Origin: an uncultured Clostridia bacterium
GTDB taxonomy: Bacteria > Bacillota > Clostridia > Christensenellales > CAG-314
Assembly (NCBI GenBank): GCA_947625725.1
Contig: CANQPI010000016.1
Span: forward strand, 1-39,446
Length of the DNA stretch: 39,446 nucleotides
Direction: 5' to 3'
The translations under genes and the position numbers were made by a program. Shown in pieces: positions 2,232-6,356 of the stretch (position 1 is its first letter; each line of letters begins with the position of its first letter). The notes below the pieces were generated by a model. It did not search any database, had not been told where the DNA came from, and saw only the letters and a program-made list of their open reading frames with translations.

Positions 2232-3137
2232 ATGAAGTACCAACAATGGCTGAAAATCTGGCTGAACAACTATGTAAAAACGTCATGCAAGGCGCGGACT
2301 TGCAACATCTACGCGCAAGCGGTAGAGCGCATTATCCCACGATTGGGCGAAATCGAATTGTCCGAGTTGACATTATCCCTGTTACAGCAATTCGTAACCG
2401 ACCTGCTCGCACCAAGCATAGGCAAACCGCTGTCGGCAAGTACGGTAAACGTAACTATCTCCGTACTGCAAAACTCTCTCAAAACGGCGCACCTGCTAGG
2501 TCACGTTGCCACATACGAGGCAAACAAAATACGTCGTCCAAAGTCGGCGGAAAAAAGGGTAGAGTGCTTTTCCGTCTTGGAGCAAAAGCAAATAGAGGCG
2601 CACATAAAAAACGGCAAAAAGTTGAAGTTCTACGGCATAATAATTTGCCTGTACACAGGCTTGCGGCTTGGCGAGTTGCTCGCTTTGGAGTGGAACAACG
2701 TGGATATGGACGCTTGCACGCTCACGGTGGAAAAGACCTGTTACTATCTCAACGGCGAACGAATAGAGGACGCGCCCAAAACGGCAAACTCCCTGCGCGC
2801 CATTCCGTTTCCAAAACAGTTGTTGCCACTGTTCAAGGAAATGTACAAAGCGCGCCAAACCAAGTATGTGCTTGAAGCCAACGGCAAACCGTTAGTTCCC
2901 CGTTCGTATCAACGCAGTTTCGAGTTGCTGCTCTACAAACTCAAAATTCCGCACAGAGGGTTTCACTCCTTGCGACACACATTTGCCACCCGCGCTCTGG
3001 AATGTGGAATGGACGTCAAAACACTTGCTGAACTGCTCGGGCACACAAACCCGACCGTAACGCTCAAACGGTACGCGCACAGTATGTTGGAATACAAAAT
3101 TCAAATGATGAACAAACTCGGCAAAATGTTTGCGTAA
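2232..3137 (+). CDS. Tyrosine recombinase (phage-integrase family), likely promoter invertase
   Basis: A 301-residue recombinase with an N-terminal SAM-like core-binding domain (about residues 1-90) and a C-terminal catalytic domain. All expected catalytic residues are visible: R145 in T-G-L-R-L-G-E, a hairpin lysine K183, H245 and R248 in H-S-L-R-H, H271 in L-G-H-T-N, and the nucleophile Y281 in K-R-Y-A-H. It carries no zinc ribbon or arm-binding domain, so it is of the simple XerC/D-like size. The ribosome binding site is AAAGGAG. The gene lies 214 bp before a pair of inverted repeats that enclose a promoter, which makes a role as the invertase of that switch the most likely one. Chromosome dimer resolution (XerD) is the alternative, but the context argues against it. 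Confidence 0.92.
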   Translation: MKYQQWLKIWLNNYVKTSCKARTCNIYAQAVERIIPRLGEIELSELTLSLLQQFVTDLLAPSIGKPLSASTVNVTISVLQNSLKTAHLLGHVATYEANKIRRPKSAEKRVECFSVLEQKQIEAHIKNGKKLKFYGIIICLYTGLRLGELLALEWNNVDMDACTLTVEKTCYYLNGERIEDAPKTANSLRAIPFPKQLLPLFKEMYKARQTKYVLEANGKPLVPRSYQRSFELLLYKLKIPHRGFHSLRHTFATRALECGMDVKTLAELLGHTNPTVTLKRYAHSMLEYKIQMMNKLGKMFA

Positions 3138-3351
3138 ATAGGTTCTATGAGAAATATAAAAATGTGAATGTGACAAAATATAGAAGTCGGCTTCTATGTT
3201 AAATAGGAATTTTCGCGTGCGAAGATAGCGAAAATTTCGTCTGCAATCGCGGACCTGCGCCCCGTCAGGGGTCGGTTGCGCAGTCAACCGTACAGATTTG
3301 CGTTTGGTCGAAAAAAAATTGACGAAACCTGTCGATCGGCTCCGTCAAAAA

Positions 3352-3382
3352 TGTACATCTAATAGTATATTAGGTGTACAAA
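3352..3382 (+). repeat. Left inverted repeat of the promoter switch (IR-L)
   Basis: A 31-bp site which, on the opposite strand, recurs at 3498-3528 with about 28 of 31 bases equal. The site is itself almost palindromic: the arms TGTACATCTAATA and TATTAGGTGTACA flank a GTA centre. That is the layout expected of a tyrosine recombinase core site with two enzyme-binding arms around a short crossover region. Confidence 0.85.
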
Positions 3383-3458
3383 ATGAGCCGAGTTGGGCGC
3401 AAAAGTTAATTATTTTGACCAAAATCGACAAGAAAAATAAAAATTTTGGGTTTGGGTA

Positions 3459-3487
3459 TTTACATTTGAACGGTCAGAGTGTATAAT
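3459..3487 (+). promoter_or_regulatory. Promoter inside the invertible segment
   Basis: TTTACA at 3459-3464 and a perfect TATAAT at 3482-3487 are separated by 17 bases. The predicted start of transcription, near 3494, lies just before IR-R, so the RNA begins with the IR-R hairpin and a leader of about 230 bases. A weaker second candidate in the same direction is TTGACC (3415-3420) with TAAAAA (3438-3443), also with 17-base spacing. Confidence 0.75.
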
Positions 3488-3497
3488 TAGTATGTAA

Positions 3498-3528
3498 TTT
3501 GTTCGCCTAATATACTATTAGATGAACA
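3498..3528 (-). repeat. Right inverted repeat of the promoter switch (IR-R)
   Basis: This is the inverse copy of the site at 3352-3382, differing at three positions. It is near-palindromic too, with outer arms TGTTCGCC and GATGAACA. In RNA it would fold into a stem of about 10 pairs at the very 5' end of the lipoprotein transcript. Confidence 0.85.
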
Positions 3529-3728
3529 AAATCCATTGCCGAGTGTTCATCTGATTGCGCGCAACTAATCTTCAAACTATGTAATGGCGAACATCTTGCA
3601 TTGGTTCGGCGCGGCAAACACACAAGTTTTGCCGCGTCGAACACTCCTCTCTTGACGAGGCTCAACAACAAAAACCGAGCGGGGCAATCGGTTCAATTTG
3701 CCCTAAAAATCTATAAGGAGAAAAAAGT
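3529..3728 (+). promoter_or_regulatory. Long untranslated leader of the lipoprotein gene with a hairpin
   Basis: A strong hairpin lies at 3610-3636 (arms CGCGGCAAA and TTTTGCCGCG). No T-run follows it, so it is not a standard terminator. Half-site-like words TGTTCATCT (3544-3552) and GGCGAACA (3586-3593), taken from the IR-R sequence, recur here. The leader ends with AAGGAG before the ATG at 3729. A second level of control in the leader, as in cwpV, is possible but not shown. Confidence 0.5.
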
Positions 3729-6356
3729 ATGACAAAATCTAAAAAATTGATGGCTTTGTTGCTTGTATTGGCAATGCTGTTTGCGGTAGTTACGGTAATT
3801 GCCGCTTGCGACAAGCACGAATGTAAACATGTATGCGAAACCTGCGGCAAATGCACGGACGCAACTTGCACAGACCCCGCATGCAAGGACAAATGCCCCG
3901 GACACGAAACCGCTCACGTATGCGGTCACAAATGCCCGACTTGCGGTAAGTGCCTTGACGAAACCTGCACCGACCCCGTGTGCGCGGACAAGTGCCAAGG
4001 ACACCAACAAGCAGGTTTGGAAGCAGGCGACTACAACATTGTTTTGAGAGATGAAACAAACAGTCTTGTTTGGTATGCAACGGGCGCAATCGGTAGCAAG
4101 GGCGGACTGCTTGTAAGCCATTCGGGCACAACGGTTGCGGTTTTGACCGTTATTTACGAAAACGACAAATATACGTTGAAGATCGGCAGTCAATATCTCG
4201 AAGCATATCTCAACGGTACATACAAAAATATGCGCCTTGTCAACACTCCGAGCAACGACGCAATCGAATGGAAATGGAGTACAGAGTACGACACTTTCTG
4301 CGCAACTTATTCCGACGAAACGCGCTACCTTGGCGGTAACTACTACAACGGACAGGTTGACGATTTATATGACAATGCGGTCACTCTTGCCAAAGAATAT
4401 TACTTTGAGAACAATCCCGTTGTAATTCATTACGAAAAATATGTTCCCGCTCCTCCCGTTGAAGTAGAGTCAGTATCTTTTAACACCAAAAGGGATACTC
4501 TTTACTTGTTACCTGTGGAAAAGAATTTTATTGAACTTACCGCAACAGTTCAACCCGCCAATGCTCCGCAGGACATTGTTTGGACGGTTGACAAAGAAGA
4601 CATGGTGACTTTTTCATCGGGTTCTTATGTTGGGGTTAAATTTGGGCGTGTGACTTACAAAGGTCAAACAGGCACAATCACGCTCACCGCAACGGCTAAG
4701 GACACCGACAAGTCCGCTTCCGTCACCATAGTTATTCAAGACCGAGAGGGTACAAAGCAAGATGACCCCATCACCGTTGACGAAGCGATCGCGTTGATCG
4801 CGAGCACCGATCAATATGTTAAAGGGGACGATTCAAACGAAACTCATGGATTTTATATCACAGGTACGGTCGCCGCAGGGTCTAAGAGAGTCAGCGGCGG
4901 TTGGGAGTTTTCTCTGCTCGGTAGCGACGACAAAACGCTTGTCTGCTCCGTAAAAGACGATCAATTGGAAAAAGACGGTATCACGATACCTCTCAAAGCA
5001 GACGGCGGTTTGGACGGCAGTCAAATCATTTTTTATGCGGCAAGTATGCATAATGACAACGGTGTCTACTCCGCAAGTGTGCTAACTTCAATGAACACAA
5101 TAAAATCTTTACAACTTCCCGTACTTACTGCGATAGAGATCGAGGCGGAGCAAACGGAAGTGACTGTTCCTTATTCCGTTGAAATAACGGTCAAGAGCAT
5201 AACTCCCGCCAATGCGGTATTCGAAAACGTCGAATGGCTGACTTCCGACGAAACCAAGGCGACCGTAACGGGCGACGAGAGCAAAGCCACCGTTACGTCC
5301 GTTGCGGCAGGCGAAGTGAAAATTTCCGTCAGATGTGCCAATATTACTTCAAACGAAATAACGCTTACTATTTCGGAAGAACAAACGGCAGTTAAAGTTA
5401 TTTATGATTGGACGTCTGCATTAGAAGGTAAAGTTTGTGATAGCACTCTCTATTCACAACGTGATCCGAGAGAAATGATTACAGAAATTAACCAATGGAC
5501 TCCTGGACAACAGGAAATAAAATCTTTTGTAACTGAGGGAACAATGTACGATAGCATTGAAGCCCCGGGAATTGCTTATATTCCTGCGAAAAGACTTATA
5601 GCAGGTCAAATAACAATTCAAACACTTCACGAAATCAAGAAAGTAACGTTCAAAGTTGTTCCGTTTGCAGATGCGACAACGACACAACTTTCTGTTAATA
5701 CCATTAGCAAAACGCACGAAAAAGGCGACAGCATTTATACGGGCGATCCGAGCAGTGCCATTGACATTGTGTTTGAGTTGACAGAGGCAACTACCACGCT
5801 CAATGTTGAGGCTACGGGAGTTGCAGGTAATAGTTTCGCTATTGTAGGTATAACTTTGGAGCAAGAGTCTGTTTCCTCTAACAGTTTTGAGGCTATTTGG
5901 ACGTCTGCATTAGAAGGTAAAATTTGTGATAGCACTCTCTATTCACAACGTGATCCGAGAGAAATGATTACAGAAATTAACCAATGGACTCCTGGACAAC
6001 AGGAAATAAAATCTTTTGTAACTGAGGGAACAATGTACGATAGCATTGAAGCCCCGGGAATTGCTTATATTCCTGCGAAAAGACTTATAGCAGGTCAAAT
6101 AACAATTCAAACACTTCACGAAATCAAGAAAGTAACGTTCAAAGTTGTTCCGTTTGCAGATGCGACAACGACACAACTTTCTGTTAATACCATTAGCAAA
6201 ACGCACGAAAAAGGCGACAGCATTTATACGGGCGATCCGAGCAGTGCCATTGACATTGTGTTTGAGTTGACAGAGGCAACTACCACGCTCAATGTTGAGG
6301 CTACGGGAGTTGCAGGTAATAGTTTCGCTATCGTAGGTATGACTTTGGAGTGGTAA
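3729..6356 (+). CDS. Phase-variable surface lipoprotein with Ig-like domains and duplicated C-terminal module
   Basis: An 875-residue protein with a lipoprotein signal peptide: K-S-K-K, a hydrophobic core and a lipobox V-I-A-A-C with C27 as the lipidated residue. Residues 32-92 hold two cysteine-rich repeats with C-x-x-C-G-K-C, perhaps metal-binding. Residues about 93-235 form an unrecognised domain. A Big2-like bacterial Ig domain follows at about 240-335, then an OB-fold-like region at about 340-460, a second Big2-like domain at about 465-552, and two almost identical 151-residue modules at 561-711 and 724-874, just before the stop. It is expected on the outer face of the membrane as an adhesin or surface-binding protein; the ligand is unknown. 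Expression would depend on the invertible promoter upstream. A terminator follows at 6433. Confidence 0.85.
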   Translation: MTKSKKLMALLLVLAMLFAVVTVIAACDKHECKHVCETCGKCTDATCTDPACKDKCPGHETAHVCGHKCPTCGKCLDETCTDPVCADKCQGHQQAGLEAGDYNIVLRDETNSLVWYATGAIGSKGGLLVSHSGTTVAVLTVIYENDKYTLKIGSQYLEAYLNGTYKNMRLVNTPSNDAIEWKWSTEYDTFCATYSDETRYLGGNYYNGQVDDLYDNAVTLAKEYYFENNPVVIHYEKYVPAPPVEVESVSFNTKRDTLYLLPVEKNFIELTATVQPANAPQDIVWTVDKEDMVTFSSGSYVGVKFGRVTYKGQTGTITLTATAKDTDKSASVTIVIQDREGTKQDDPITVDEAIALIASTDQYVKGDDSNETHGFYITGTVAAGSKRVSGGWEFSLLGSDDKTLVCSVKDDQLEKDGITIPLKADGGLDGSQIIFYAASMHNDNGVYSASVLTSMNTIKSLQLPVLTAIEIEAEQTEVTVPYSVEITVKSITPANAVFENVEWLTSDETKATVTGDESKATVTSVAAGEVKISVRCANITSNEITLTISEEQTAVKVIYDWTSALEGKVCDSTLYSQRDPREMITEINQWTPGQQEIKSFVTEGTMYDSIEAPGIAYIPAKRLIAGQITIQTLHEIKKVTFKVVPFADATTTQLSVNTISKTHEKGDSIYTGDPSSAIDIVFELTEATTTLNVEATGVAGNSFAIVGITLEQESVSSNSFEAIWTSALEGKICDSTLYSQRDPREMITEINQWTPGQQEIKSFVTEGTMYDSIEAPGIAYIPAKRLIAGQITIQTLHEIKKVTFKVVPFADATTTQLSVNTISKTHEKGDSIYTGDPSSAIDIVFELTEATTTLNVEATGVAGNSFAIVGMTLEW
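5409..5861 (+). repeat. Tandem 453-bp duplication, copy 1 (in the lipoprotein gene)
   Basis: This copy encodes residues 561-711 and matches 5898-6350 at an offset of 489 bp with about three base differences in 453. The linker between the copies (5862-5897) is not duplicated. Such similarity points to a recent or gene-converted duplication in frame. Confidence 0.95.
5898..6350 (+). repeat. Tandem 453-bp duplication, copy 2 (in the lipoprotein gene)
   Basis: This is the second copy, encoding residues 724-874; only one codon (W875) separates it from the stop. Differences from copy 1 lie near 5922, 6333 and 6340. Two of the three change an amino acid conservatively (V to I, I to M). Confidence 0.95.

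Follow-up and report, generated by a model that had tools for sequence, protein, structure and literature searches.

Among the described systems closest to the locus considered here are the switches of C. difficile, which are short invertible segments lying between inverted repeats and which, in the case of the pdcB switch, carry the promoter inside the segment (as set out in the available text of PMC5903667 and PMC9286219). One of them, the Cdi7 switch near CDR20291_3416, has a recombinase in its vicinity (PMC5903667, PMC9286219), and a single enzyme, RecV, serves several of the switches (PMC5903667). Further invertons of gut Clostridia have been detected from sequencing reads and are described as inverton group 139 and invertase group 35, with 32 of 33 found in Clostridia and a tyrosine-type recombinase near them (available parts of PMC11892184). 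In E. coli the promoter element fimS, which serves a surface structure, is inverted by the tyrosine recombinases FimB and FimE (as summarised in PMC9993118 and PMC7241687).

The stretch of DNA analysed here (the window) is 39,446 nucleotides long and is one entire contig of G000, a 1.68-Mb assembly of an uncultured Clostridia bacterium. A preliminary description of the window had proposed a promoter made invertible by the recombinase next to it, and every part it named is present: inverted repeats of 31 nt at 3352-3382 and 3498-3528, which are complementary at 28 of 31 positions (90%) and enclose 115 nt; a promoter with a 17-base spacer and a perfect TATAAT between them, facing the plus strand; a tyrosine recombinase directly upstream; and directly downstream a gene whose 875-aa product begins with a hydrophobic signal ending IAAC before DKHE, which suggests a lipoprotein that is probably exposed at the surface. 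The coordinates are collected in the table. The inverted repeat scores 23.5, and in 600-bp windows from elsewhere in the same kind of loci, used as a null, a score of at least 16 was reached by 0.28% of 1060 windows, and in a second null by 3 of 1022. Each arm is in addition an imperfect palindrome by itself, of 12 + 5 + 12 bp, and the score of the promoter was reached by 0.7% of 300 base-shuffled spacers.

Features of the switch and its neighbouring genes in the window
Feature	Position	Strand	Evidence or remark
Tyrosine recombinase, 301 aa, presumed invertase	2232..3137	+	Pfam; residue alignment; relatives keep sites just downstream
Left outer half-site TGTACATCTAAT	3352..3363	+	
Left crossover core AGTAT, 5 bp	3364..3368	+	Identical in both arms
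Left inner half-site TGTACACCTAAT (minus-strand letters)	3369..3380	-	Swapped with right inner half-site in L034 and L035
Invertible segment, core centre to core centre	3366..3514	.	148 bp, about 14 helical turns
Promoter TTTACA (3459-3464), 17 bp, TATAAT (3482-3487)	3459..3487	+	Faces the lipoprotein gene (predicted ON); reversed in L034, L035, L036 and L043
Right inner half-site TGTTCGCCTAAT	3500..3511	+	
Right crossover core, AGTAT on the minus strand	3512..3516	-	
Right outer half-site TGTTCATCTAAT (minus-strand letters)	3517..3528	-	
Presumed regulated gene, 875-aa putative surface lipoprotein	3729..6356	+	Big_2 domain; AAGGAG at 3715-3720

The surroundings of the switch have some features of their own. 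A short repeat at 3249-3313, between the recombinase and the switch, has 17 more matches in G000 that are 75-93% identical and in many cases partial, and looks as if it were an inserted small non-autonomous element; it may partly account for the left arm lying 218 bp after the recombinase stop, compared with 40 bp in the related loci L035 and L036. In the leader of the lipoprotein transcript, 3604-3642 could form a GC-rich stem-loop, with a stem of 15 bp that is 93% complementary, a loop of 9 nt and no run of T after it. The 3' end of the lipoprotein gene carries a C-terminal tandem duplication with a period of 489 bp, near-identical by eye. At the edge of the contig, positions 3-338 encode the C-terminal part of a HipA-like protein, and as the genes upstream of the recombinase differ among the window, L035 and L036, this side may be a hotspot for insertion.

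The recombinase matches PF00589 (E=4.6e-26) and PF14659, the SAM-like and catalytic domains being the only ones matched. When it is aligned with 23 relatives and with Int proteins of known structure, the recombinase shows R145, K183, H245, R248, H271 and Y281, which we take to be the catalytic residues, so that the active site beside the switch is complete, as had been claimed, and the enzyme would be expected to act on the site next to it. Its closest solved relatives are the Int proteins in PDB entries 6en0, 6emy and 6emz, presumably those of Tn1549. An integrase of a phage or ICE of the Tn916/Tn1549 type was nevertheless rejected as its identity, as integrases of that type are longer, with an arm-binding domain, compared with the 301 aa and two Pfam domains seen here; no match was found among the viral contigs searched with it, and the downstream neighbours deoB, D-Ala-D-Ala carboxypeptidase, scpA and scpB were also counted against such an element. 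A serine invertase of the Hin/Mpi type was rejected as well, since Pfam gives Phage_integrase and not a resolvase-type catalytic domain.

The alignment of 24 recombinases was used to search more widely. Within the taxonomic family, relatives occur in 20 of 41 genomes, representing 3 of 11 genera (E<=1e-40). For the order two overlapping samples were searched: the first has relatives in 65 of 297 genomes and 29 of 125 genera (E<=1e-90), the second in 77 of 396 genomes and 31 of 142 genera (E<=1e-110). A class-level search (E<=1e-70) gave 30 of 391, and in it the matches that do not belong to the order have open frames that are longer, at 327-451 aa. Regions were taken round 20 genus-level matches and six more, five from the family search, 60 at the level of the order, and 37 that were fetched later and held out. 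Inverted repeats scoring at least 16 lie just behind the recombinase in 16 of 28 loci, compared with the 0.28% of the first null, and in 24 of 65 loci of a second set, compared with the 3 of 1022 windows of its own null. In the first 91 loci scanned for sites 62 had a candidate pair and 59 were above the cut-off, with L234, L065 and L062 dropped; a pair was present in 18 of the held-out loci, giving 77 loci with sites. Also left out were L223, identical to L222 over 600 bp; L189, which nearly duplicates L191; L063 and L068, each with a recombinase that is truncated or distant; L042, which is cut; and L038, which is the same place as L066. A leave-one-out profile that ignores the core found two sites downstream in 74 of 128 recombinase loci and no pair in the other 54, some of which are on contigs that end too early and others on contigs that are long enough (e.g. 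L053, L054, L055 and L060). On this co-occurrence of sequences the cassette is to be seen as part of a family that extends across the order. In L062 (G015:C9) the recombinase is split into two overlapping frames, which is why the site was missed in the first scan, while the inverted repeat and target genes persist. The window's genome holds a second cassette of the family, G000:C4 (L026, L044), in the predicted OFF state before a lipoprotein of the same family, and its recombinase may, to judge from the alignment, be dead, for R248, conserved in 23 of the 24 aligned recombinases, is there replaced by Q.

The preliminary description read these parts as a phase-variation switch, and comparison of assemblies supports this. 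Four related loci, spread over three assemblies, have the homologous segment reversed relative to the window. They are L034, L036, and L035 and L043 (both in G020), and their recombinases are 82-91% identical to that of the window. Against L034, 121 of 133 aligned columns match when the segment is reversed and 76 of 161 when it is read in the same sense; blastn places the segment on the minus strand (92.1% over 177 bp) and the flank on the plus strand (96.9% over 127 bp). The inner half-arms are swapped between the window and L034 or L035 and the outer half-arms are kept, which maps the crossover to the bases that the two arms share, and these hold the core.

Elsewhere in the family the cleanest case is L191 with L194, reversed at 99.4% over 161 bp with a collinear flank at 99.1% over 432 bp, so that a segment bounded by inverted repeats is found both ways round, between assemblies at the window and in a pair at 99% elsewhere. 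Altogether 11 locus pairs, falling into five sets, are reversed, all between different assemblies: the window with the four loci above; L064 with L045 and L066, where the collinear flanks are short (28 and 34 bp); L194 with L189 and L191; L192 with L200; and L219 with L198 and L205, where a collinear flank is reported for the L198 pair and none for L205/L219. Contigs that end just after the recombinase (L043, L045, L049, L051 and L052) were considered as breaks at a site of mixed orientation, but the idea was dropped and given no weight, as contigs also end upstream of other matches when judged by eye.

For the window itself the evidence of inversion is a comparison between species-level assemblies, and it could be imagined that the window strain has a genuine switch that no longer turns, or that does so too rarely to matter. 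The Q in place of R248 in the G000:C4 paralogue would fit with such decay, which may therefore occur in these cassettes, but the window recombinase keeps all six of its presumed catalytic residues and both arms keep identical cores, and a locked switch is considered unlikely.

The sites have a common plan across the family, with each arm made of two inverted 12-bp half-sites (majority bases TGTACATCGATT) flanking a 5-bp core. In the 59 loci conservation of the half-sites is highest at -3 (A, 97%), -8 (C, 92%) and -1 (T, 87%), whilst position -2 is T in 58% and A in 42%. The cores are identical within the locus in 71 of 74 cases and between loci in 1.9%, as measured in the core-free leave-one-out scan; the first choice of centres had also scored core identity and the scan was repeated without that term, with a profile that ignores the core though it was trained on sites found with it. 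Cores that are equal within loci and rarely between them would follow if the protein recognised the half-sites and strand exchange took place in the core.

A clear promoter, predicted by consensus, lies between the sites in 74 of the 77 loci, and its spacing is 17 bp in 70 of these. It points away from the recombinase (predicted ON) in 22 loci and toward it (OFF) in 52, with 3 of the 77 undecided, and in one orientation only does it face the gene. In 58 of the 74 loci the distance between the end of the -10 element and the nearer core centre is 24-28 bp (26 in the window), a position which suggests that the transcript begins roughly where the site does. It might be argued from this that the palindromic arms are repressor operators, or RNA hairpins, round a fixed promoter where nothing flips, as each arm is a dyad by itself and the transcript would begin near the right arm. 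Against this stand the inverted copies in relatives, above all L191 and L194 with their flanks unturned, and the cores that agree within loci and rarely between them, and the explanation is very improbable.

Whether the neighbouring recombinase is the one that turns the segment is a separate question, as another enzyme could flip it in trans with the neighbour a mere bystander, in the way that RecV acts on several switches. The preliminary description tied the recombinase to the segment wherever the latter is kept, and this stood for all three of the close whole-segment copies in other genomes, each of which has the recombinase beside it; a further match, in G003, is weak and covers 38 bp. Two diverged orphan site pairs in G008 lack an adjacent recombinase, but that genome carries one elsewhere. 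These pairs, L112 (G008:C46) and L113 (G008:C43), are full site pairs with differing cores before large surface-type genes, on short contig ends, with no recombinase seen beside them, so adjacency is not strict. The close recombinase of G008, L065, near which no site pair was found, may act on them in trans, and the two pairs could fit a RecV-like mode in that genome. In the window's own genome, however, the two arms of the window are the only places that fit the strict site pattern perfectly; with two mismatches there are 17 further places, compared with 7 for a reversed-pattern control. Half-site identity moreover rises with recombinase identity, from 0.56 to 0.75, although linked descent alone could explain this. 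An enzyme acting in trans on the window is therefore held to be distinctly improbable, and the adjacent recombinase remains the preferred catalyst.

A RecV-type master system in G000 was likewise rejected, the diverged site pair at G000:C4, which escapes the strict pattern, having a recombinase gene of its own. Relatives of the window lipoprotein are encoded on eight other contigs of G000 (C4, C10, C12, C13, C20, C30, C35 and C38), several of them at contig ends. There is a switch on C4 and none was seen on C10, C12 or C38, whilst on C13, C20, C30 and C35 the DNA upstream of the gene is outside the view. No site pairs were found around seven of the lipoprotein paralogue loci (L099-L105), with DNA well upstream in view for L099, L100 and L103; the contigs of L101, L102, L104 and L105 stop at the gene or within it. 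The idea that one recombinase drives the whole set of lipoprotein promoters in G000 has no support in the DNA in view.

The distance between the two sites of a locus is quantised. From core centre to core centre it is 124-129 bp in 4 of the 77 loci, 136-142 bp in 24, 146-150 bp in 32, 158-161 bp in 12 and 168 bp in 3, with one locus each at 200 and 243 bp. Because the gap intervals that were counted had been chosen after viewing the data, period statistics were used instead, and with periods from 6 to 30 bp tried the best is 10.45 bp (R=0.749, n=77). The first 59 loci alone gave a best period of 10.40 bp with R 0.780, which jitter of +-5 bp matched in none of 2000 trials, and in the held-out set the phase that the first set predicts was matched to within 2 bp by 14 of 18 loci, where 0.38 is expected by chance, and missed by 4 of 18; some of the held-out loci are related to the first set, and the 19 of 37 without a pair are uncounted. 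The core-free scan gave a best period of 10.35 bp (R 0.726, n=74), with single pairs at 118, 121 and 189 bp, of which L221 and L263 are probably wrong pairs since their cores are unequal, these being two of the three pairs with unequal cores in that scan. The two orphan pairs of G008, outside the phase statistics, are both at 147 bp.

As the loci are related by descent the phase test is only partly independent, and it could be that the steps of about 10.5 bp are an artefact of shared ancestry or of the way sites were found, and not the mark of a looping constraint. The spacers of one clade share lengths, and one of the two control distances, that from the recombinase stop to the left centre, shows slight periodicity (R 0.20 at 10.45 bp for n=77, where about 0.10 is expected); the other, from the right centre to the first target gene, gave R 0.03 at 10.45 bp (n=50). 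The period persists, however, when one locus is kept per recombinase cluster, with R 0.733 at both 80% identity (n=55) and 70% identity (n=34) and R 0.859 at 60% identity (n=13), and it persists in the profile-found held-out loci and when the core is ignored, which makes an artefact quite unlikely. The simplest reading of the whole-turn spacing would be synapsis in a short loop with both sites presenting the same face of the helix.

Taken with this loop, the reading of the locus as a phase-variation switch, that is a promoter inverton, is regarded as very probable. The recombinase would bind the four 12-bp half-sites, the two 29-bp sites would be paired in a DNA loop of about 148 bp, and exchange of strands within the 5-bp cores would turn the promoter round. 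In the orientation sequenced the promoter would read into the lipoprotein gene (ON), and after inversion it would read back toward the recombinase (OFF). A loop of about 148 bp is about one persistence length of DNA, at which the sites would pair only when they stand on the same face of the helix, and the spacer could then evolve only in steps of about 10.5 bp.

The genes that stand behind the predicted promoters are varied, as judged from Pfam and PADLOC annotation of chosen representatives, the family names being annotations. Homologues of the window's putative lipoprotein follow a switch of this kind in L034, L035, L036 and L044; a List-Bact repeat protein is found in L198 and N-methylation pilin-like proteins in L057 and L241. 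Others resemble restriction and modification genes, with type III modification and restriction genes in L185, an Eco57I-like methylase plus partners in L050 (the first gene of which is homologous to those of L192, L200 and L234), a C5 methylase in L193, and, behind weak inverted repeats, an EcoRI-type methylase in L229 and a large protein matching the PADLOC type IIG model in L061. An HKD+Snf2 helicase follows the switch in L191, with L194 alike, an operon with an AAA ATPase in L064, and a NusG-like factor in L220. Proteins with TIR and SIR2-like domains are encoded in L066, the locus on which the domains were tested, with L046 and L062 alike; the SIR2-like protein of L066 had no PADLOC match, and the genes of this locus are possibly, on their domains, a phase-variable defence system. 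The range of targets, from type III, Eco57I-like and C5 methylase genes to TIR/SIR2 proteins, helicases, pilin-like proteins and lipoproteins, suggests hedging of anti-phage and surface functions by one device.

It is on balance probable, with less assurance than for the window alone, that these are order-wide, self-contained cassettes, each with a private recombinase, four half-sites, a 5-bp core and a fixed promoter, whose crossover sites must stand in helical register and which make surface and anti-phage functions phase-variable. If this is true, what the recombinase inverts is one loop, as a rule of 12 to 16 turns, possibly with no help from bending proteins, and spacer length changes in evolution only by whole turns; in E. 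coli fimS the repeats are short and host bending proteins are required. One mechanism would then govern lipoproteins, pilin-like proteins and operons of at least six restriction-modification or defence-like kinds. The spacing rule also poses a physical question, that of how a tyrosine recombinase achieves synapsis within about one persistence length. Invertons are usually found singly from reads, and this order is known here mostly from assemblies; with 12-5-12 sites, paired cores and whole-turn spacing, assemblies alone could suffice to locate such switches and to tell which state they are in. The preliminary description had recognised the switch itself, which stands, but underrated its generality and was in no position to see the site plan or the spacing rule.

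A promoter inverton with an adjacent recombinase is a known kind of switch, also in Clostridia, and that of the window is a further member. It is like the C. difficile switches in its short invertible segment between inverted repeats, with the difference that the several switches under RecV are scattered and their repeats for the most part unrelated, at least as the available text presents them, whereas here most cassettes have their own enzyme and share one half-site plan. With groups 139 and 35 it has in common the nearby tyrosine-type recombinase; that comparison is one of descriptions and not of site letters, and the available parts of the source state no spacing rule (PMC11892184). It is like fimS in that a tyrosine recombinase would invert a promoter element for a surface structure, although the E. 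coli element is larger, at 314 bp in the sources as available, compared with 148 bp between 29-bp sites here. In the literature searched there was no report of the 12-5-12 site plan with whole-turn spacing, nor, among the matches listed, of helical spacing in tyrosine invertons. The nearest precedent found for the latter would be, by analogy, the internal eliminated sequences of Paramecium, the lengths of which are quantised at about 10 bp (best fit 10.2 bp), as explained by the formation of a loop before excision (available text of PMC3464196). In Paramecium this is a eukaryotic excision by a domesticated transposase, unrelated in enzyme and outcome to the cassette (PMC3464196). Judged by the literature searched, what appears to be new in the cassette is thus not the invertible promoter but the site plan of its family together with the whole-turn spacing of the sites.
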